From Roseicyclus marinus (GTDB taxonomy: Bacteria > Pseudomonadota > Alphaproteobacteria > Rhodobacterales > Rhodobacteraceae): a stretch of 64,000 nucleotides of DNA. Every line of letters starts with the position of its first letter. The stretch's first letter is position 1. The notes below the pieces were generated by a model that was not told where the DNA came from, did no database searches, and saw nothing but the letters and a program-made list of their open reading frames with translations. The position numbers and the translations under genes were made by a program. The stretch is taken from positions 1 through 64,000 of the forward strand of contig NZ_JASJOF010000002.1 of NCBI RefSeq assembly GCF_030163795.1. Direction: 5' to 3'. Positions 15,301 to 28,087 of this stretch are shown piece after piece.

Positions 15301-17358
15301 ATGACCGCTGTCGCCACCCCGCTTCCGCTCGAAGTGGCCCCCGAAGCCGCCGCTGCCGTATCCGAAGCGCCCGAGCCGAACCCGATCTCCGATGTTGTGC
15401 GCGCCATGCGCGGCCGCTGGAAAGGAACCATTTGCGGCGCGCTGGTCCTCGGCGCGCTGATGGGCGCAGGAGGCTACCTGTCCGGCGTCCAGCTGTACGA
15501 AAGCCAAGCGATCCTGCGCGTCTTCCCACAGGAATCGAACATCCTCTATTCAACCGGCGACGATAGCGTTCTGCGCACCTTCGAGAGCTTTGTACGCGCC
15601 GAGACCACTTACGTGGCTTCGCATCCCGTCATGTCCCGTGCAGTTGAAACGCTAGCCGCAGCGCGTCCAGACCTTGCCCAAGGGTTAACCTTGCAGGACC
15701 TGACGAGCTCCATCGAGATCCGTCGCTCCGATAGCCTTATCGTTCTGACCACGCTTAGCCGCGAGCCGGCTTTTGCCGCGCAGAAGCTCGAGGCGGTGGT
15801 CGATGCATATCTTGCACTCAACCTAGAGGCTGACGATGCCCGCTATGGGGTGCGCCTATCCGAGCTGCACGACCGCGAGGAAGAACTCGTCGCGCGGCTT
15901 GCAGAGTTGCGAACAAACCAGCTTGAGATTGGAGGCGAGTTCGGCATGAGTGCCATCTCGCGCGCGCACGTCGAGAAAATCGGGCAGATTGACGCGCTGG
16001 CCATTCGTCTGGGCGAGATTGAAACCTCCATAGCAGCGATGGAAGCCAATACTGGTAGCACCTCTGTCGACGGTGCCGACCAAGAAATCATGCGCGCGAC
16101 GCTACTCGACGATATCATTGGGGCCCTCGGCACGGAACGCGCGAGGCTACTTGCTGAACTGGCGGCGCTGCGAGTCGATTTCGCCGACCGCACCAACCCT
16201 CGCTTCGAACAGCGCGAGCGGACACTGGTAGAGGAAATTCGTGTCGTCGAGACTGCGCTGGAGGATAGGCGAGAGCAAATTCGCGTTCTGGCGCAGACCG
16301 GTGCGCTGACCGATGCGCCCGACCAAGGCGACGAACAGAGCATCGCTGAGATCCGTTCGCTGCGTGACCGCATCTCCAACCAACTGGATGCCGCGCGCGA
16401 GGAGGCACGGGACCTCAACCGCCGCAGGATCGACCTTGACCGGGTCGAGCAAGAGATTGCCGCTGCCGAGGAACTTCTGAGCGAAACGCGCCGTGCTCTC
16501 GAAGTGATCATGGTTGAGTCCGGCCGCGATCTCCCAGGGTTCACGGTTCTCATGTCCCCCCCGTCAAGGCCGGTGAGCCCAGCGGAAGATAGCCGGAAAA
16601 TGCTGGCAGCGGGCGGTTTCGCGGGCGGTGCAGCCGCAGCCTTGCTGATCGCGCTGGTTCTGGCCCTGACCGAGCGCAGGTTGCGGTTTGCCGAGAGCCT
16701 TACCCCAATCAGCCACCGCCTACCGGTTTTGCAGGTCTCAGCTGTCAACGAGGCTGATACCGATGCCGCCGACCGGTTGCGCAACGAGTTGCAACTCCTC
16801 CCTCTGCGCCGTCCTCGGCTTGTGGGCAAAGCACCCATCATCACAGTGGTGCGCGCAAGTTCCGGGTCGACGACAGATCTCGCGGTGTCACTTGCCGAAA
16901 GCTACGCACGCGCTCGAATGAAAGTCCTCTTCATTGAGGCCGATATGGGTCACTGCGTCGAGGGCGCGACCGAGATTGGTTGGTGCGACTTGTTGTGTGG
17001 TGCGCAACTCACGTTGCCCAGATCCTCCGAGGCGCATGGTCTGTGGACGCTCCCCGTCGGATCGTTCCAAAGACTTGATGACCGAGCCATCTCAGCACCA
17101 ATGGTGAGGACGGCATTGGAACGCGTCGTTCATGATTTCGACATAATAATCATCTCGGGCGGCAGCCTGAAGGATCGGCTCTCGTGCCAGTTCCTTCTTT
17201 CCGCAGCCGATGTCGGCGTCCTCGCAACTCGACCTGACGAGCCCCGTGCGGCTGTCCATAGCCAAGTTGAGCGGCTCGATACCCTACCACGCAATGGTTC
17301 AGTCGCCGTGATGCGCAACGCGCTACCCGGAGATCCCTGGCTCGCCGTCAGAACCTGA
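15301..17358 (+). CDS. Wzc/Wzz-type polysaccharide chain-length protein with degenerate kinase domain
   Basis: A 685-residue inner-membrane protein of the polysaccharide co-polymerase family. A first membrane segment lies near 42-60, then a long periplasmic coiled-coil region (about 190-410), a proline-rich PPSRPVSPAED before the second membrane segment near 430-455, and a cytoplasmic domain that resembles BY-type tyrosine kinases. In that domain the P-loop region (about 516-526) reads VRASSGSTTDLAV: the lysine of the usual GEGKST is absent. A Walker A'-like VLFIEADMG follows near 540. No C-terminal tyrosine cluster is present. It therefore probably controls chain length or export without autophosphorylation. 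It sits between a glycosyltransferase and the priming transferase. Confidence 0.85.
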   Translation: MTAVATPLPLEVAPEAAAAVSEAPEPNPISDVVRAMRGRWKGTICGALVLGALMGAGGYLSGVQLYESQAILRVFPQESNILYSTGDDSVLRTFESFVRAETTYVASHPVMSRAVETLAAARPDLAQGLTLQDLTSSIEIRRSDSLIVLTTLSREPAFAAQKLEAVVDAYLALNLEADDARYGVRLSELHDREEELVARLAELRTNQLEIGGEFGMSAISRAHVEKIGQIDALAIRLGEIETSIAAMEANTGSTSVDGADQEIMRATLLDDIIGALGTERARLLAELAALRVDFADRTNPRFEQRERTLVEEIRVVETALEDRREQIRVLAQTGALTDAPDQGDEQSIAEIRSLRDRISNQLDAAREEARDLNRRRIDLDRVEQEIAAAEELLSETRRALEVIMVESGRDLPGFTVLMSPPSRPVSPAEDSRKMLAAGGFAGGAAAALLIALVLALTERRLRFAESLTPISHRLPVLQVSAVNEADTDAADRLRNELQLLPLRRPRLVGKAPIITVVRASSGSTTDLAVSLAESYARARMKVLFIEADMGHCVEGATEIGWCDLLCGAQLTLPRSSEAHGLWTLPVGSFQRLDDRAISAPMVRTALERVVHDFDIIIISGGSLKDRLSCQFLLSAADVGVLATRPDEPRAAVHSQVERLDTLPRNGSVAVMRNALPGDPWLAVRT

Positions 17359-17409
17359 TCGTTCTCCCTTTATTCAGCCTCTCGACAATTCCCTCTGAAA
17401 GGAAATGCC

Positions 17410-18075
17410 ATGACCTTGGCTTCTACAAATACGACTTTGGTCTCCCGCTCCCTGCTAATCAATCAGGCATCCTCTCCAATTCCATTTGGCAAGCGGATAT
17501 TAGACATCGTCGTTTCCACTCTGATGATTATCGTTCTCCTTCCATTGATGATCATTACAGGCCTTGCGATTAAGCTCAACAGCCAAGGGCCAGTCTTTTT
17601 CGTACAGACGCGAGTGGGCCTGAACGGAAAGACCTTTGGCATGGTCAAATTTAGGTCGATGTACCGGGACGCTGAGGCAAGGCGGGCCGAGCTTCTAGCT
17701 CAGTCGGATCGAACCGGTGTGTGCTTCAAGAAAAAAAACGATCCGCGGATCACCCCTGTAGGCCGCATCATTCGGCGCTACTCAATCGATGAACTGCCTC
17801 AACTTTTCAACGTTTTGAAAGGAGACATGTCACTCGTTGGCCCCCGCCCCGCGCTCCCTTCCGAAGTCGCTTCATACCCAATCCATGCCCTTGATCGCCT
17901 CAAGATACTGCCTGGCATTACGGGTATATGGCAGGTCTCCGGTAGAGCCGAAGTCTCCTTCGAGGAAATGGTCGAAATGGACATTTCCTACGCCCGGTCA
18001 ATGGGCCTGCGCCGCGATCTCCACGTCCTATTTTTGACAATTCCAGCCGTATTATTGGGACGCGGTGCTTATTGA
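17410..18075 (+). CDS. Undecaprenyl-phosphate sugar phosphotransferase (ExoY/WcaJ-like priming enzyme)
   Basis: A 221-residue priming transferase that moves a sugar-1-phosphate from a nucleotide sugar to undecaprenyl phosphate. KRILDIVVSTLMIIVLLPLM (about 28-47) is the usual membrane entry, followed by GPVFFVQTRVGLNGKTFGMVKFRSM near 58-82, DPRITPVGRIIRRYSIDELPQLFNVLKGDMSLVGPRP near 113-150, and PGITGIWQVSGR near 170. It is the short ExoY-type form with one N-terminal hydrophobic segment. A strong AAAGGA site precedes the ATG. AT-richer than the genes before it. It would start assembly of the repeat unit built by the upstream glycosyltransferases. Confidence 0.92.
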   Translation: MTLASTNTTLVSRSLLINQASSPIPFGKRILDIVVSTLMIIVLLPLMIITGLAIKLNSQGPVFFVQTRVGLNGKTFGMVKFRSMYRDAEARRAELLAQSDRTGVCFKKKNDPRITPVGRIIRRYSIDELPQLFNVLKGDMSLVGPRPALPSEVASYPIHALDRLKILPGITGIWQVSGRAEVSFEEMVEMDISYARSMGLRRDLHVLFLTIPAVLLGRGAY

Positions 18076-18162
18076 TCGCTCCGGAAAGTAAGAAACGGCC
18101 ATTCGGTCGCACTTAAAAAGTAGGAACTCATTTAAAAAATCGGAACCGACAAGGCATAAGAA

Positions 18163-18654
18163 ATGGTTATCGACACACACCAGTACAAAGACCGCGATTT
18201 TCTTGTAATTAAGATCATGACGCCGAGTCTTAATACAAGTAATGCGTCTCACCTGCGCCTGCTTCTCTCCGACAACATTGATCAAGGCGATCGTAATATA
18301 GTCCTTGACATGACGGGAGTTAAGTCAATCGACAGCTCTGCTCTTTATGAAATTATTGCCGCGGTGAAGCGAGTAGGAAATCTTGGCGCAATTAGTGTCG
18401 CGCAACTCACACCGAAGGTGGAACAGGTCTTTAAGCTAACACGAATGGACAAGGTGGTCACTGTCGCAGAAACGGTCGATCACGCCATCCTGGGCATTGC
18501 GAAGGCATCGAATGGTCCGTCCGCACGGCAATCGTGGTGGCGCTTGATCGCACGACCCTTGGCCTCACTTAGCCGCCCACACGCAAATTCGCCTCGCGAT
18601 ATCTCAACGCCATATTGGCCAGAAACTTCAGGTCTAGGGCGGACGCAACGCTGA
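18163..18654 (+). CDS. STAS-domain protein (anti-sigma-factor antagonist-like)
   Basis: A 163-residue cytoplasmic protein. The first ~110 residues form a STAS domain: FLVIKIMTPSLNTSNA near 13, NIVLDMTGVKSIDSSALYEIIAAVKR near 46-71 with the serine pair at the usual phosphorylation site, and VFKLTRMDKVVTVAETVD near 90. The last ~50 residues are unlike the STAS fold and polar. Such proteins act in partner-switching control, but no partner kinase or phosphatase is encoded next to it. It follows the priming transferase by 87 bp in the same direction, so control of exopolysaccharide synthesis is plausible. The IS element begins 40 bp after its stop. Confidence 0.8.
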   Translation: MVIDTHQYKDRDFLVIKIMTPSLNTSNASHLRLLLSDNIDQGDRNIVLDMTGVKSIDSSALYEIIAAVKRVGNLGAISVAQLTPKVEQVFKLTRMDKVVTVAETVDHAILGIAKASNGPSARQSWWRLIARPLASLSRPHANSPRDISTPYWPETSGLGRTQR

Positions 18655-18750
18655 TTGTGAGGGCATCGCTGTATTAAGAGGCGTATGTGCTGACTGAACT
18701 GGCCCCCGTTTCGACCGGACACTTGGGCATAACCATGGAGGCTTAGGCAT

Positions 18751-19146
18751 ATGCCTGAGCACGTGCTTATGTCTGAAATAGAGATCATCACCGATGGCGG
18801 CCGCCGGCGCCGCTGGACTGCCGCTGAGAAGCTGCGAATTGTGGAAGAGACGCTGGACGACCGGGCCAGCATCTCGGTCGTAGCGCGCCGCAATGGCGTG
18901 GCACCGAACCTGTTGTATCGGTGGCGGCGGCTTATGCTCGAAGGGGGAAGTGTCGCCGTGTCCGAGGACGATGACGTCACCAGCAACAAGGTTGTCCGCC
19001 AGATGGAGGACCGTATCCGCGAGCTCGAACGCCAGCTCGGGCGCAAGACGCTGGAGGCGGAGATCCTGCGTGAGGCACTGGACAAGTCACGGTCAAAAAA
19101 ACCGACCTTGCTCGCGCGGTCGCCGCTGAAGGACGATTTCCGGTGA
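18751..19146 (+). CDS. IS3-family (IS2-like) transposase OrfA
   Basis: A 131-residue DNA-binding subunit. RRRRWTAAEKLRIVEETL near 18 and the helix-turn-helix SISVVARRNGVAPNLLYRWRRL near 41-62 bind the element's ends. A leucine-zipper-like segment (RQMEDRIRELERQLGRKTLE, about 87-106) follows. It resembles IS2 OrfA from memory of that protein. The slippery stretch near its end would shift a fraction of ribosomes into orfB. Its stop overlaps the orfB GTG as GTGA. Confidence 0.9.
   Translation: MPEHVLMSEIEIITDGGRRRRWTAAEKLRIVEETLDDRASISVVARRNGVAPNLLYRWRRLMLEGGSVAVSEDDDVTSNKVVRQMEDRIRELERQLGRKTLEAEILREALDKSRSKKPTLLARSPLKDDFR
19095..19101 (+). other. Programmed -1 frameshift site (A7)
   Basis: Seven adenines are read in the orfA frame as A-AAA-AAA. 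A slip of -1 enters the orfB frame, which is open from here to the orfB start at 19143, so a fused OrfAB transposase can be made. This is the normal way IS3-family elements make their active transposase. Confidence 0.75.
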
Positions 19147-19976
19147 AGGTCGTGGCCGAAACCCTGGGCGTGGCCCGCTCAAACCTGATCGATCGGATGA
19201 ACGGGCGAACGAAGCCGCGGCGGCGCTATCATAAAGCGCAAGACGCGGCGCTGGTGCCGTTGATCACCACGCTGGTGGCGGCGCGCCCGACCTACGGCTA
19301 TCGGCGGATTACGGCGATCCTGAACCGCCAGTTGCGCTCGGAGGGCTTGGCCCCGGTCAATCACAAACGGGTCTACCGGATCATGCAGGCCCACAACCTG
19401 CTCCTGGCTCGAAAATACACGGAGCGCCCCGAGCACGTTCACGATGGCAAGGTCATCGTCATGCGCTCGAACCTGCGCTGGTGTTCGGACGGGTTCGAGT
19501 TCACCTGCTGGAATGGCGACATCCTCCGTGGCGCGTTCATCATTGATGCTCACGACCGTGAGGTCATCGCATGGCGGGCCGTAGTGAACGCTGGGATCAG
19601 CGGCTCGGACATCCGCGACATCATGCTCGAAGCTGTGGAGCGCCGCTTTGGCGGTCACCGTGCGCCGTCGGTCATCGAGATGCTGTCCGACAACGGCTCG
19701 CCCTACACCGCGAAGGACACGCAGATCTTCGCCCGCCAGCTGGGTCTGAAGCCCTGCTTCACGCCGGTCCAGAGCCCGCAGAGCAACGGAATCTCAGAGG
19801 CCTTTGTGAAGACGCTGAAGCGCGATTACGTCCAGGTGACACCGTTGCCGGATGCTAAAACCGTTCTCGGATTGATCGGAGGCTGGATCGAGGACTACAA
19901 CGACAACCACCCGCACTCAGGGCTGAAAATGCGCTCGCCACGCGAGTTCATCGCAGCTCAAACCGCAACCGCCTGA
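19143..19976 (+). CDS. IS3-family (IS2-like) transposase OrfB
   Basis: A 277-residue DDE integrase-core protein. An HTH_21-type region has RPTYGYRRITAILNRQL near 41. The catalytic core reads RWCSDGFEFTCWNGD near 113 (first D), EMLSDNGSPYTAKD near 178 (second D) and SPQSNGISEAFVKTLKRDY near 210 (E). The C-terminus WIEDYNDNHPHSGLKMRSPREF is typical of the group. It can start at GTG 19143, which overlaps the orfA stop, or be made as an OrfAB fusion from the A7 slip site. Confidence 0.92.
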   Translation: MKVVAETLGVARSNLIDRMNGRTKPRRRYHKAQDAALVPLITTLVAARPTYGYRRITAILNRQLRSEGLAPVNHKRVYRIMQAHNLLLARKYTERPEHVHDGKVIVMRSNLRWCSDGFEFTCWNGDILRGAFIIDAHDREVIAWRAVVNAGISGSDIRDIMLEAVERRFGGHRAPSVIEMLSDNGSPYTAKDTQIFARQLGLKPCFTPVQSPQSNGISEAFVKTLKRDYVQVTPLPDAKTVLGLIGGWIEDYNDNHPHSGLKMRSPREFIAAQTATA

Positions 19977-20270
19977 GTGTCCGGTGAATTGGGGGCAAGA
20001 CCACTGACCAGTCCATCGCCTTTCAAGTCGGCAGCATTGGCTCGCCCCAAGAACCCAGCTTTCCCTTTGAAGCAGAGAGATAAATCCGTCTGAAATTTTG
20101 TGAGATCGAGCCGGAGACCGCTTTCGTCGATCAAGAACAAGGAACGTCGGCAAATCCTGCCACACTTTCGCATAGGAAACCCTTGTCGAAAGGAAAGCAG
20201 ACTCGCCGCATGCGTTGAAGACAAAAGCTGACGAGTTTCCTATCCAAGTTCGGAGCGTACGGAGAAGCAG

Positions 20271-21137
20271 ATGTGTGCAGATTGTGAAGCGGAAATCTTG
20301 GCCGATAAAGAGAGCGAGAGCGAGCGCAAAAGTTTCAGCCTCGCACTCGTCTTCGCCATTGTGTCCACAGGCGCTGCAGCGAATGCGGCAGCGCCCTCGA
20401 TGCTGCATCAATTCCGCGTGCAACAAAATTCTTGGCTCACAACACCTGACCTCGGTGTGAGCAAGATCGTTTTCATCTGCATCATGATCGGTATCTGGAG
20501 AGCGTCATCCGGCCTGCATGGTCCGGCGCGACCGTGGCACGTCTTTCTACTCCTTCCTGCCGCAATTGGCACTCTTGGTGTGTCAGGAAACAGCGCTTGG
20601 GCAGGACTGGCTTTGAGCGCAATAGCCTTCCTGGCTGTCTTCTCTCAACCATCGGGTACACGTTGCGGTTTATGGATTATCCTTCTGGGCGCGCTCCACG
20701 GTCCTGGCACAAGTCTTCTTGGGCAGATGGCGGGCGGCAACCTGCTGGCGATTGATCAATTTGTGACGGTTTCGATCCTTTCGCTGTTTGAGACCATCAC
20801 GCCCGTCCGGGGAAATGTGATTCAGACCGCCGGCGGCGATGCGATACTGCTTGTATGGGAATGTGGCGTGTTAAAAAATATCGCCTTAGTTCTGTTGCTT
20901 TGGCTAACAATGCTCCAGCTTCTGATCGGGCCCGAATATCGCGCGCCACTATCAGACGCAGTTCTGCTTGTTGGCGTCTGCGTAGCAATCAATACTGTTC
21001 GCTTGTCACTGATGGCCATCACAGCGGATTGGTTCGATCTTTTTCATGATGGAGCGGGAGCGACAACACTTCGGCTGCTTCTTCTCTCCACACCCGTGGC
21101 TTTAGCCTGGTCGAAGGCAAATCATGCGCGCGCGTGA
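20271..21137 (+). CDS. Exosortase/archaeosortase-like membrane cysteine protease (candidate)
   Basis: A 288-residue protein with about eight hydrophobic segments. The late part carries the order of residues expected for the exosortase catalytic triad: a cysteine in VWECGVLKN (C198) at the start of a membrane segment, an arginine in AINTVRLSLM (R244), and a histidine in DLFHDGAG (H259). Exosortases cut and transfer secreted proteins carrying a short C-terminal signal of motif, membrane segment and basic tail, and often sit beside exopolysaccharide genes. A good GGAGAA ribosome site is at 20261. The gene overlaps the next by 14 bp, and a small protein with a matching C-terminal layout follows. 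The stretch is AT-richer than the core genes. Subtype not assigned; the CG after the cysteine differs from the common CSG. Confidence 0.68.
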   Translation: MCADCEAEILADKESESERKSFSLALVFAIVSTGAAANAAAPSMLHQFRVQQNSWLTTPDLGVSKIVFICIMIGIWRASSGLHGPARPWHVFLLLPAAIGTLGVSGNSAWAGLALSAIAFLAVFSQPSGTRCGLWIILLGALHGPGTSLLGQMAGGNLLAIDQFVTVSILSLFETITPVRGNVIQTAGGDAILLVWECGVLKNIALVLLLWLTMLQLLIGPEYRAPLSDAVLLVGVCVAINTVRLSLMAITADWFDLFHDGAGATTLRLLLLSTPVALAWSKANHARA

Positions 21138-21621
21138 TATAATTTTTTGGCTTGCCCTTTTCATCACGCCGGGTCTTGGCCTTGCGCTGAAATCTCGCGA
21201 TACTTCGGTAGAGGCATTCGACAGGGTGAGTTCGGTGCAGCGAGCCGAAGACGTCCTCTTGGAGCACGGCCTCGTGAGAGACGATACTTCCAGAGTGCTT
21301 ATCAGCGGGATCTCCGCTGCAGCTATATTCCACCGACCGCATTGTGACGGGTTGCTTGCGGTAGTCCCCTTGCCACTTACCGCCCAACGATTTGAACATG
21401 TCGTTCCGACGCTAGGGGAGAACGTGACGGCTTCCGGATATGTATTCCAAGGGCGCCATTCAGACGCATATCCTGCGCTGGCGCGCCTCCGCGCGCGCCT
21501 CCTTGCAGATCTGCGCATTCGAGATCAAACCGATACAACCGTTTTTTCTTTCAAGGAATTGGGTAACTGCGGCCTGGCGGCAATAATAGACTGGTCCAAG
21601 CTTGAGCCAAGGAGAACGTAG
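21124..21621 (+). CDS. Unknown exported protein, exosortase-cassette member
   Basis: A 165-residue protein I do not recognise. The N-terminus (IIFWLALFITPGLGLAL, about 6-22) is a signal anchor or signal peptide; the rest looks soluble and periplasmic, with two cysteines (in HRPHCDGLL and ELGNCGLAA). It starts inside the end of the exosortase-like gene and lies 3 bp before the small candidate substrate, so all three are one transcription unit. By position it could be an accessory protein, as EpsI-type proteins are for exosortases, but I see no clear EpsI signature. Confidence 0.6.
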   Translation: MRARDIIFWLALFITPGLGLALKSRDTSVEAFDRVSSVQRAEDVLLEHGLVRDDTSRVLISGISAAAIFHRPHCDGLLAVVPLPLTAQRFEHVVPTLGENVTASGYVFQGRHSDAYPALARLRARLLADLRIRDQTDTTVFSFKELGNCGLAAIIDWSKLEPRRT

Positions 21622-21624
21622 AAA

Positions 21625-21918
21625 ATGTTTTTTCTTTACAACAGCCTGAGGTGTAGCTTTCGGAGCGTATTTGTAACACTGACTGGTTCCTTATTTTTCA
21701 TGACTGAAGCAGCGAAGTCTCAAAGTGGCACCGCTCATGCATCAGCTAATTGTAATGCAAGCTTTAAGGTCAATTGCACCGGGAGTAACATTACTATCGA
21801 CTTTACTCCGTCTGCCGCGCCATTAGAAAATCTCGGAGACCATCCAAATGAGCTTTTGGCGATACTTGCGATTATGATTTTTTTTGCAATGCGACTTGGC
21901 GTACGCCGCAAGGGTTGA
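21625..21918 (+). CDS. Small exported protein with C-terminal sorting-signal layout (candidate exosortase substrate)
   Basis: A 97-residue protein preceded by a strong AAGGAG site (21609). It has an N-terminal signal peptide (about 1-32), a polar centre rich in Asn, Ser and Thr with two cysteines (C43, C51), and ends with PNELLAILAIMIFFAMRLGVRRKG-type architecture: a hydrophobic segment (about 76-89) and a basic tail RRKG. That is the layout of proteins processed by exosortases, although no PEP motif is present; PLENLGDHP would be the candidate recognition stretch. It is the last gene of the cassette. Function is inferred only from layout and location. Confidence 0.6.
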   Translation: MFFLYNSLRCSFRSVFVTLTGSLFFMTEAAKSQSGTAHASANCNASFKVNCTGSNITIDFTPSAAPLENLGDHPNELLAILAIMIFFAMRLGVRRKG

Positions 21919-22582
21919 GTTGGGAACCCATAAAACTTGAGGGTTTTTAGTTGCATAAGCTACTGAAAGACTTTTCCATCAAGGCTGGATACTTATTTCA
22001 TTATTTTTGCACAACCTACGCGTGACACCGCTAATTTTCTTCATGGGCCGCGCGGGTCAACTTATACTCATGGCAAGTCTTGCCAGCTGTTCATTTCGCG
22101 CACGGGGAGAACAATGGCAAGCCACGACGCGCAGCGTTGTCTGCAGCCCCTTGCTCGTTTCCAGCACCATGCGCGGCACCGGATCCTCGACCGCGCCCCG
22201 CGCATCCAGCGCCCGATAGGTGTTGATCGTAAAGGCGACAGTGGCCACCTCCCCAAGACCCATTAGCCCCACCCAGACGACATGAGCCGCGCGCAGCGCG
22301 GGCAGCCGCCGCCGCTCCTAGCCGAGGGTCATGTGAAATCTGTCGAAACGGCCGGTGGCAGCCATGGCGCGATCTCCGCATTCTGTCTCTGGCGCCTCCG
22401 GGCCGGGTCGGCCTTTCGTCGCGTCCAGATCACACTACGCGGAGCGCGGGGATGCCGCGCGCGGACAGGGGTATCGCCGGGCCGTCCAAAACGGCATCCG
22501 GGCGGCCCAACGGTAGCACCATGCTACTTTGGATACGTCGCACCCGCCGATCGACGCAGGCCGGGCCCTCCCACCGGACAAG
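21919..22582. other. Gap with a possible minus-strand gene remnant
   Basis: No convincing complete gene is present. The first 150 bases are AT-rich like the cassette to the left. From about 22057 to 22350 the minus strand reads like part of a small membrane protein (for example AAHVVWVGLMGLGEVATVAF and YRALDARGAVEDPVPRMVLE), but it lacks a proper start: the upstream ATG frame (MAATGRFDRFHMTLG) stops almost at once in another frame. I read this as a frameshifted, truncated remnant at the edge of the acquired DNA. Family not recognised. Confidence 0.35.
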
Positions 22583-26703: not shown

Positions 26704-27837
26704 TCACAATTCGACGTCTCGGACAATCACATTTCCGCCGCCATCTTTCTTGGCAACATAGAGCAGCTTGTCGGAGGCTTCGAGAAGCGCTTCGATGTTC
26801 TCGGGTGGCTTCGGGACAAAGGCGACACCGATGCTGACCGTGATCATGGCATGGGCCGCTTTCAGGTCCGGATCGGTCTCGGAAACCTGGATTTCCGCAA
26901 GCGCGCTGCACAGGCGCTCGGCGGTGTCCACGGCCTTCTCCTGCTTGATATTCGTGAGGACCACCACGAATTCGTCCCCCCCGGTTCGGGCAACCAGATC
27001 GCTTTTGCGCACGAAGTGACCGATCCGATCCGCCACCAGCCTCAGAAGCCGATCACCGACCGTATGACCGAAGCTGTCGTTGACTTGCTTGAAGCGGTCG
27101 AGATCCAGCGTGGCAAGCGCAATCCCGGTGTCCTGCTTTTCGGACAGAAAGGACTCGTATTCCAATTTCAGGCCACGGCGGTTCAGCACTTGGGTCAGCT
27201 CATCCTTGCGGGATGCCGAAATGGCGCGCTGTCTTTGATCGACGACGTTTCGCAGGTGAAGATGGATGAACCCCGAGGCAACCGCCCCACAGACCACGCT
27301 GGCGATCGTCAAAACGGCATATGTGGAATTGAGCGACGGCATGCGCATGGAGTCTGGCAAGACCGAAATCCAGAACACAGCCACGAACAAACACAACGAC
27401 CCGCCCACTGCTCCCCACATGAAGGATCGATTCAGCCTGCTTTTTTCGATCACGATATGTCCAAGAATTCCGAAAGCCGCGGCCGCACAGAGAACGAGGA
27501 TTTTGGTCTGCAGATCGGGGCCCGCAATGGCCAGCTGCGTGATCGACGTAAAGACAAGAGCGGTGACGGCGGCAATCCAGCCGCCCAGCAATCCGGCGAA
27601 ACCCACAAACATGGGTCGATTGCTGAAAGTGACATCACTGCCCAAGTCCAGCGGCTGGAGGATCAAAATCGAGCCACCCACCCCCAGCATCGCGCCAAGC
27701 GCCAAAGCCTTGATGTGTTTCGATGCGACACGGTGCCGGATGTGATGATGATAAAACAGCATGATCGCCGCAAACATCACCAAACTGCTGGTGACAATCG
27801 AAATGACCTGAGTCAACGCGCTTTCCCCTGTTGCCAT
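26704..27837 (-). CDS. Membrane-bound diguanylate cyclase (GGDEF)
   Basis: A 377-residue protein. Six or so membrane segments (about 10-205) resemble the 5TMR-LYT sensor region, for example FVGFAGLLGGWIAAVTALVFTS. The cytoplasmic GGDEF domain begins near 215 with DELTQVLNRRGL, DLDRFKQVNDSFGHTVGDRLL near 255-275, and the active site ARTGGDEFVVVL near 305. An RKSD (RxxD) inhibitory site stands five residues before GGDEF, so product feedback is expected. It makes cyclic di-GMP, which commonly raises exopolysaccharide output. I place the start at 27837, just before the first membrane segment; an upstream in-frame start at 27942 would add 35 polar residues. Confidence 0.9.
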   Translation of the reverse strand: MATGESALTQVISIVTSSLVMFAAIMLFYHHHIRHRVASKHIKALALGAMLGVGGSILILQPLDLGSDVTFSNRPMFVGFAGLLGGWIAAVTALVFTSITQLAIAGPDLQTKILVLCAAAAFGILGHIVIEKSRLNRSFMWGAVGGSLCLFVAVFWISVLPDSMRMPSLNSTYAVLTIASVVCGAVASGFIHLHLRNVVDQRQRAISASRKDELTQVLNRRGLKLEYESFLSEKQDTGIALATLDLDRFKQVNDSFGHTVGDRLLRLVADRIGHFVRKSDLVARTGGDEFVVVLTNIKQEKAVDTAERLCSALAEIQVSETDPDLKAAHAMITVSIGVAFVPKPPENIEALLEASDKLLYVAKKDGGGNVIVRDVEL

Positions 27838-28087
27838 ACATTTACGGCAAACACGCCTGTCGACCCTCAGGTACTGATCCTCATTCTCCTCACTCGTGAC
27901 ACGGCCGAAAGTTGTGGACACCCGATACGGAGGCTCGCGCAAGTTGGCGTATCACATTGTGGAACTCAATCCCCTGAATGATGCGGCCCTTGAATGATCC
28001 GGCGCGAACGGCCGTCATCGCCGCGCGTGACAGCTCATCCGTGTCGCCGCGATGGGCAAGGCATTGACCTTGTGCCCGAGGCGCGGC

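Follow-up and report, generated by a model that had tools for sequence, protein, structure and literature searches.

A stretch of 64,000 nt from Roseicyclus marinus (hereafter the window) carries a cassette of three tightly packed open reading frames, which we consider likely to be a dedicated exosortase-type sorting system with a client protein of 97 amino acids. Our check of the open reading frames returned the coordinates of the preliminary description, and its arrangement of two short genes closely following the enzyme gene proved accurate: the second gene overlaps the first by 14 nt and is separated from the third by 3 nt. The parts of the cassette are as follows.

20271-21137, + strand: exosortase-like enzyme gene, encoding a multi-pass membrane protein of 288 aa
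20862-20864, 21000-21002 and 21045-21047, + strand: proposed catalytic residues Cys198, Arg244 and His259 of the enzyme, identical in every one of the 18 family members
21124-21621, + strand: accessory protein gene, 165 aa, sharing 14 nt with the enzyme gene; N-terminal membrane helix and a small alpha/beta domain, presumably extracytoplasmic
21625-21918, + strand: candidate client gene, 97 aa, starting 3 nt past the accessory stop; signal-peptide-like N-terminus, CX7C core, tag, membrane segment and RRKG tail
21751-21777, + strand: CX7C stretch of the client, Cys43-Cys51, motif ANC-x7-C, with A41, N42, C43 and C51 shared by all five members of the client family
21817-21915, + strand: C-terminal tag AP[LI]xxLGxxPxEL, membrane segment and basic tail of the client, conserved with the relative in genome G142

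The nearest relative of the cassette, in a genome of the same family (G142), has counterparts of the three genes in an unchanged order, at 38, 44 and 47% identity. For assembly of the enzyme family, a first profile was built from two rows, the window and G142 enzymes, and was then searched in a sample of the class, where it matched 25 of 385 genomes at E<=1; only rows with E<1e-6 were kept, and the rows above this value (17 of 27) were discarded as chance. Two members used in plasmid searches added proteins from Microvirga ossetica, Rhizobium gallicum and Rhizobium sp. WL3, and the plasmid-borne enzyme matches were alphaproteobacterial; tblastn against plasmids gave no match with either the window enzyme or the G623 enzyme as the query. 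A profile search in the family of G623 matched 2 of 36 genomes, G623 itself and G914, which was added, and a later profile search of the class sample (13 of 385 genomes at E<=0.001) added G643, G551 and G840. One of these 13, G567, was left out as a classical exosortase. Two pattern scans of genome contigs for close relatives returned 62 and 589 pattern matches, none of which was confirmed. The final set comprised 18 proteins from 17 genomes or records, with G869 contributing two, and its members are 16-38% identical to the window enzyme.

A match to exosortase profiles, as expected from the preliminary description, was found for the family but not for the window enzyme by itself. Alone, this enzyme scored 9.1 bits (E 1.6) against the superfamily model exo_archaeo (TIGR04178, cut-off 23) and had no Pfam match; within the search of its own genome it reached 16.6 bits (E 0.024). 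When the 18 members were scanned singly against NCBIfam, four passed the TIGR04178 cut-off (L010, 24.4 bits; L011, 24.6 bits; R. gallicum, 30.8 bits; WL3, 23.6 bits) and the others matched weakly, while none of the 18 reached the cut-off of any named exosortase or archaeosortase model. The family matches to ArtD, ArtE, cyanoexosortase C and XrtX were all sub-threshold, that to cyanoexosortase C giving 30.6 bits against a cut-off of 225. With Pfam PF09721 matched by one of 15 family enzymes (E 1.5e-7), current models mostly miss the clade.

As a yardstick, TIGR02914 was located in 12 of 152 genomes, of which one short locus (L090) was dropped; the remaining 11 loci each held a classical enzyme beside or fused with EpsI, picked by the order of C-[SA]-G, N-x-x-R and H-x-x-x-G. 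The profile of the 18 members aligned with that of the 11 classical exosortases at 96.6% (hhalign, E 6.5e-10), with C198, N241xxR244 and H259xxxG in register with the classical motifs, whereas reversed profiles stayed at or below 0.3% and 20 column-shuffled profiles at or below 1.2%. Against the same classical profile, the window enzyme alone gave 3.3% and together with G142 13.5%, so the exosortase assignment rests on the family. Judged by these profile comparisons, the window enzyme is a remote member of the exosortase/archaeosortase superfamily, and the 18 proteins appear to form a separate exosortase subfamily without a name in Pfam or NCBIfam as searched.

The catalytic residues lie exactly where the preliminary description had read them, in the order and setting known from exosortases: C198 within ECGV, R244 within NTVR and H259 within HDGAG. 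C198, N241, R244, H259 and G189 are invariant in all 18 enzymes, and G263 is kept in 17. Like exosortase A/EpsH (PF09721), the cassette enzyme is polytopic with a Cys, an N-x-x-R and an H-x-x-x-G motif; unlike exosortase A/EpsH, it has C-G-V, or C-S-S in relatives, for C-x-G, and Arg and His are 15 residues apart (18 of 18) instead of 21 (11 of 11 classical enzymes). The Cys-Arg spacing is 43-49, mostly 46, in the family versus 45-46 in the 11 classical enzymes. The unusual context of the Cys, which had been contrasted with the common CSG, was confirmed: G-V follows the Cys in the window and G142, S-S or similar residues in most of the others. The window enzyme lacks the C-x-G motif, and the G551 relative has C-A-G.

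An AlphaFold2 model of the enzyme, made from 15 aligned sequences, had a mean pLDDT of 87.3 and a pTM of 0.83. In the model, helix 200-218 starts shortly after C198, helix 227-248 holds R244 close to its end, and the short helix 252-260 has H259 at its end, with helix 262-287 following directly. By this order of helices the three residues are predicted to gather at one membrane face, in agreement with the cluster previously proposed. No sequence relative of the enzyme was found among solved structures (best E 0.66), and Foldseek gave no match at E<=0.001 for the enzyme or accessory model; GPCR and kinase rows in its output were dismissed as not meaningful.

In a tree limited to the new enzymes and the EpsI-linked exosortases, the new enzymes split from the classical set with support of 100/99; 11 of the 26 inner branches lacked resolution, and the program warned of long branches meeting.

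The accessory protein is a constant partner of the enzyme. Its relatives adjoin the enzyme gene directly downstream in 17 of the 18 loci, overlapping it, abutting it or lying a few bases away, and in the 18th, from Microvirga, the accessory and the enzyme are fused in one frame of 443 residues. The second gene, first read as a short exported protein, is accordingly not a loose exported product but a companion of the enzyme. When each of the 18 accessories was compared with a profile of the other 17, it scored 17.4-68.7 bits; 200 shuffled versions of each sequence reached 9.8 bits at most. Cys149 is invariant in all 18, and the structure model had a pLDDT of 87.8. EpsI-like regions are fused to or next to EpsH, and EpsH/EpsI (TIGR02914) form an adjoining or fused pair with a small membrane-anchored partner in polysaccharide loci, as described in PMC1569441; the cassette resembles them in these respects and differs from them in that its partner lacks EpsI homology. 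An identity of the accessory with EpsI was rejected: hhalign against 11 EpsI sequences gave 0.3%. Pfam and NCBIfam scans of 15 of the 18 accessories returned chance-level matches only, and TIGR02914 had no match at E<=0.001 in the genome of the window. Since the family matches were at chance level and the hhalign value was this low, the accessory appears, as far as these tools can see, to be EpsI-like by place and not by descent.

The last product of the cassette ends in a membrane segment and RRKG, preceded by Cys43 and Cys51 in the CX7C arrangement, which bears out and refines its previous description as a protein with a Cys-containing polar region ahead of such a tail. Six open reading frames of the window passed a crude filter for a signal and a tail, and the client alone also had NC-x6-8-C. 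Despite its PEP-CTERM-like architecture it lacks the PEP motif, and it had no NCBIfam match at E<=10. Proteins of this CX7C type were found in five enzyme-carrying genomes (the window, G142, G623, G914 and G612) that belong to three families (f1, f96 and f107). The gene follows the accessory gene in the window and G142 and precedes the enzyme gene in G623 and G914. In G612 no such gene adjoins the enzyme gene; one with the full architecture lies 15 kb from it on the same contig. The distance from signal to tag, with signal cleavage judged by eye, is 25-42 residues in all five clients and 35 in the window.

A client profile (A7) built from four members (window, G142, G623 and G914) was searched in the same sample of 385 class genomes and gave six matches at E<=0.01. 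The matches with E<1e-10 came from three genomes only, all enzyme carriers (G623, 1e-39; G000, 4e-22; G612, 2e-13); three others at 0.003-0.009 were dropped, being frames of 743 and 1004 aa or containing stops. The G612 client lay outside the profile and was found blind, and a rough estimate of the chance of this match is 2e-4 (10 further carriers in 383 genomes, times 30 kb in 3.9 Mb). The genome of the window gave one TIGR04178 match and one client match, in line with the one-substrate system previously suggested, a count to be read with the reservation that short divergent tags can escape the search.

The C-terminal tags connect the client with a wider set of proteins. Among the relatives, the common tail consists of [AVM]P-x-P (PGP, PSP or PAP), a hydrophobic helix and a basic end, and the G623, G914 and G612 clients have AP-x-P or VP-x-P at the place of the window tag, the window form itself being kept in G142. 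The same kind of tail occurs on other bodies. In G551 a DUF4114 protein (PF13448, 4.8e-13) with an AP-x-P tail occupies the third position, the place of the window mini-protein, and in G726 a tagged DUF4114 protein (1.2e-13) lies about 8 kb from the enzyme on the same contig; these proteins (319-327 aa) are larger than the CX7C mini-proteins. A DUF4114 gene is also in the third position in G643, where the contig stops short of the tail. Tagged small proteins, some of them Gly-rich, were seen in G869 (two), G720, G611 and Microvirga. Both Rhizobium records have VPGPEAGxGL tails on two tagged proteins read per record, whose bodies match their counterparts across the records (E 3e-9 or better) and do not match each other within a record. 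Altogether, 13 of the 18 enzymes could be assigned a tag-bearing candidate; the second G869 enzyme, not among these 13, had only a doubtful 57-aa open reading frame.

Six tails were combined into a profile, which we searched in 17 carriers and 5 non-carriers, 22 genomes or records altogether. At E<0.001 it gave 12 matches in six of the 22, all carriers, six of the matches being in the profile and six outside it; the remaining 11 carriers, which have tags of another type or no tag, gave no match at this threshold. At E<=0.1, 12 of the 22 matched, including two non-carriers. Because the [AVM]P-x-P motif with its helix and basic end recurs on different bodies, the comparison of sequences points to these comparable tags on unrelated bodies as the suffix pattern of a sorting signal. 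They recall the clients of PEP-CTERM (TIGR02595), which, according to PMC1569441, are exported proteins with a tripartite C-terminal tag. A recognition motif other than PEP had been proposed for the cassette, and the window and G142 tag is indeed odd, but the [AVM]P-x-P tags of most relatives are not far from PEP.

Taken as a sorting system, the cassette would work as follows. The 97-aa client would be exported by Sec and its signal peptide removed, after which the C-terminal helix and the RRKG tail would hold it in the inner membrane so that its AP[LI]xxLGxxPxEL tag faces the periplasm. With the help of Arg244 and His259, predicted to lie at the same membrane face, Cys198 would cut at or near the tag to form a thioester. 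Transfer of the client to an acceptor, possibly a lipid or polysaccharide precursor, would then place a CX7C peptide of some 35 residues at the cell surface or within the exopolysaccharide. On the periplasmic side, the accessory would assist the enzyme by presenting the client or by supplying the acceptor. Cleavage and transfer by the enzyme are proposed here by homology to exosortases; the thioester, the disulphide, the surface location, the acceptor and the role of the accessory are likewise inferred. More tentatively, and with somewhat less than even probability, the family with CX7C clients may be a peptide-only exosortase system, whose products of 25-42 residues, closed by a single CX7C disulphide, would sit on the surface or in the exopolysaccharide. 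Several observations weigh against this reading: the window tag departs from the [AVM]P-x-P of the relatives, the window enzyme falls below every exosortase cut-off and lacks C-x-G, no solved structure backs the fold, some relatives have no recognised client or only a doubtful or truncated one, and the contig of G142 shows no polysaccharide gene by eye.

The most serious competing explanation, which we regard as unlikely, is that the enzyme is a genuine exosortase relative and the 97-aa gene a passenger, the true client being elsewhere or lost. The preliminary description had tied the small gene to the presence of the enzyme; this held for G142, G623 and G914, where it lies beside the enzyme gene, and for G612, where it is on the same contig, but no client was recognised near the enzyme in G712, G791 and G840, so the small gene need not accompany the enzyme. 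Short divergent tags can also escape a tag search of the window's own genome. Moreover, the best tree placed the five CX7C-linked enzymes in three places, and three independent lineages with a CX7C client were not established, as a single clade was not rejected (p-AU 0.141); the five enzymes may be one clade, and the pairing of enzyme and client could therefore be one old linkage. Against the idea of a passenger, enzyme and CX7C protein occur together in five genomes from three families, with differing gene orders, and relatives place other tag-bearing proteins in the same role. In addition, the tail departs from AP-x-P in the same two genomes that have the CGV context: the AP[LI]xxLGxxPxEL tag and the CGV enzyme coincide in the window and G142 only, which are sisters, so this co-change counts as one event. 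On balance we favour the sorting system with the 97-aa protein as its client.

The surroundings of the cassette bear on a second alternative. The upstream features are given here for context.

17410-18075, + strand: polysaccharide sugar transferase (PF02397, E 6.8e-67)
18163-18654, + strand: STAS-domain protein of the polysaccharide locus (PF01740, E 3.2e-12), probably not a core part
18714-19985, + strand: insertion sequence, which we take to be of the IS3 type, with 15-nt terminal inverted repeats, 87% complementary

The exopolysaccharide locus reported beside the cassette is thus present upstream as sugar transferase and STAS genes, but it is not immediately adjacent, as the insertion sequence, with two transposase-like open reading frames (18751-19146 and 19143-19976), intervenes. 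In G623 the cassette is followed by a STAS gene as well (PF01740), and such genes were recognised by eye in the G914 and G726 loci. Polysaccharide-type genes lie near 12 of the 18 loci, counting the window, WL3 by its RefSeq names, and ten other loci in each of which one neighbour, picked for its polysaccharide-like look, was scanned with Pfam. Nine of these ten neighbours match glycosyltransferase, sugar transferase or polysaccharide export (SLBB) families, and the remaining one, from G611, was read as a Wzc-like kinase on a GNVR match below the cut-off. The G643 locus looks polysaccharide-like by eye, and a family-4 glycosyltransferase is encoded directly upstream in G712, G612, G726 and G551.

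With this company, the enzyme family might take part in building the polysaccharide, for instance as a polymerase or flippase, instead of sorting proteins; a flippase or polymerase role had earlier been proposed for EpsH too, as cited in PMC1569441. We hold this to be improbable in view of the homology and triad register with exosortases and the co-occurrence of the enzyme with tagged proteins; by eye, moreover, there is no polysaccharide gene around G840 or on the 10.6-kb contig of G142.

The cassette looks horizontally acquired, since its GC content is low (0.529 versus 0.606 for the window, with 21 of 624 segments of equal size as low) and it is rare: it is present in one of 13 genomes of the genus, and the enzyme was found in 2 of 295 genomes of the family sample (the own genome and G142; a G268 match at 0.00657 was dropped as chance) and in the own genome alone (1 of 292) in the order-level search. 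That it is a decaying or inactive remnant, gained horizontally and cut off by the insertion element directly upstream, would fit this GC content and rarity but is very hard to reconcile with three open frames, an intact triad, the conservation of all products with G142 and the purine-rich, ribosome-binding-like sequences before the starts of genes 1 and 3, and we give it hardly any weight.

The superfamily to which we assign the enzyme is already known, while the clade, its partner, its tags and the peptide client are without a name in Pfam and NCBIfam as searched. None of the literature matches listed, which were titles and abstract openings with few subscription journals among them, describes the clade, the partner or the tags. 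PEP-CTERM genomes have a median of eight clients according to PMC1569441, unlike the cassette, with which one client was detected and whose tag is not PEP. A parallel in economy is the dedicated rhombosortase/GlyGly-CTERM system, in which a single client is encoded beside the enzyme (PMC3237569); unlike the cassette enzyme, rhombosortase is a non-homologous rhomboid serine protease.

The clade gains a signature, the Arg-His spacing of 15, together with a new partner family and new tags. If the sorting system is real, a CX7C peptide has been kept with its enzyme in three families of one class and in three gene arrangements, and enzyme and tag differ together, CSS-like enzymes going with AP-x-P and CGV enzymes with AP[LI]xxLGxxPxEL. 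No other member of the exosortase/archaeosortase superfamily dedicated to a peptide is known to us. With a single enzyme, a single helper and a single client of fewer than 100 residues, the cassette would make an unusually simple system in which to ask what becomes attached to the new C-terminus of exosortase clients, since mass spectrometry can read a small processed peptide in full. In Rhizobium sp. WL3, whose enzyme just passes TIGR04178 (23.6 versus 23), both the enzyme and its partner are annotated as hypothetical proteins.

Proteins encoded on plasmids of Rhizobium gallicum and Rhizobium sp. WL3 (loci L076-L079) end in VPGPEAGxGL, followed by a helix and then RRR, and in each record this tail is borne by two unrelated protein families. 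The whole tail is a predicted C-terminal sorting tag; NCBIfam as searched held no dedicated model for it. The PGPxxGxGLP tail profile gave four matches on the Microvirga ossetica plasmid NZ_CP016617.1, three of which were read, and the same plasmid carries the enzyme and the accessory protein fused:

L044:6962-8293, exosortase-like enzyme-accessory fusion, single frame of 443 aa

An IS110-like frame, recognised by eye, lies immediately 3' of this fusion. Genome G869 encodes the enzyme-accessory pair twice, as distant copies on separate contigs (L037, L040), with clear tagged neighbours beside only one of them.

In four genomes carrying related enzymes (G712, G612, G726 and G551; loci L032, L034, L036 and L063), a family-4 glycosyltransferase gene overlaps or abuts the enzyme gene immediately on its 5' side, and its product contains the text GGIE(T/S)HV. 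Genes resembling glmS were recognised by eye 3' of the accessory gene in G612 and G726. These flanking genes may hint at the acceptor.

Two further features lie near the cassette in the window:

18714-19985, insertion sequence whose terminal inverted repeats measure 15 nt, located between the STAS gene and the cassette
26704-27942, minus strand, membrane-bound diguanylate cyclase (GGDEF) by appearance, recognised by eye

The insertion sequence, of IS3 type, is surrounded by a GC-poor stretch (about 17000-22000), and the GGDEF-like gene is a few kb away from the cassette.
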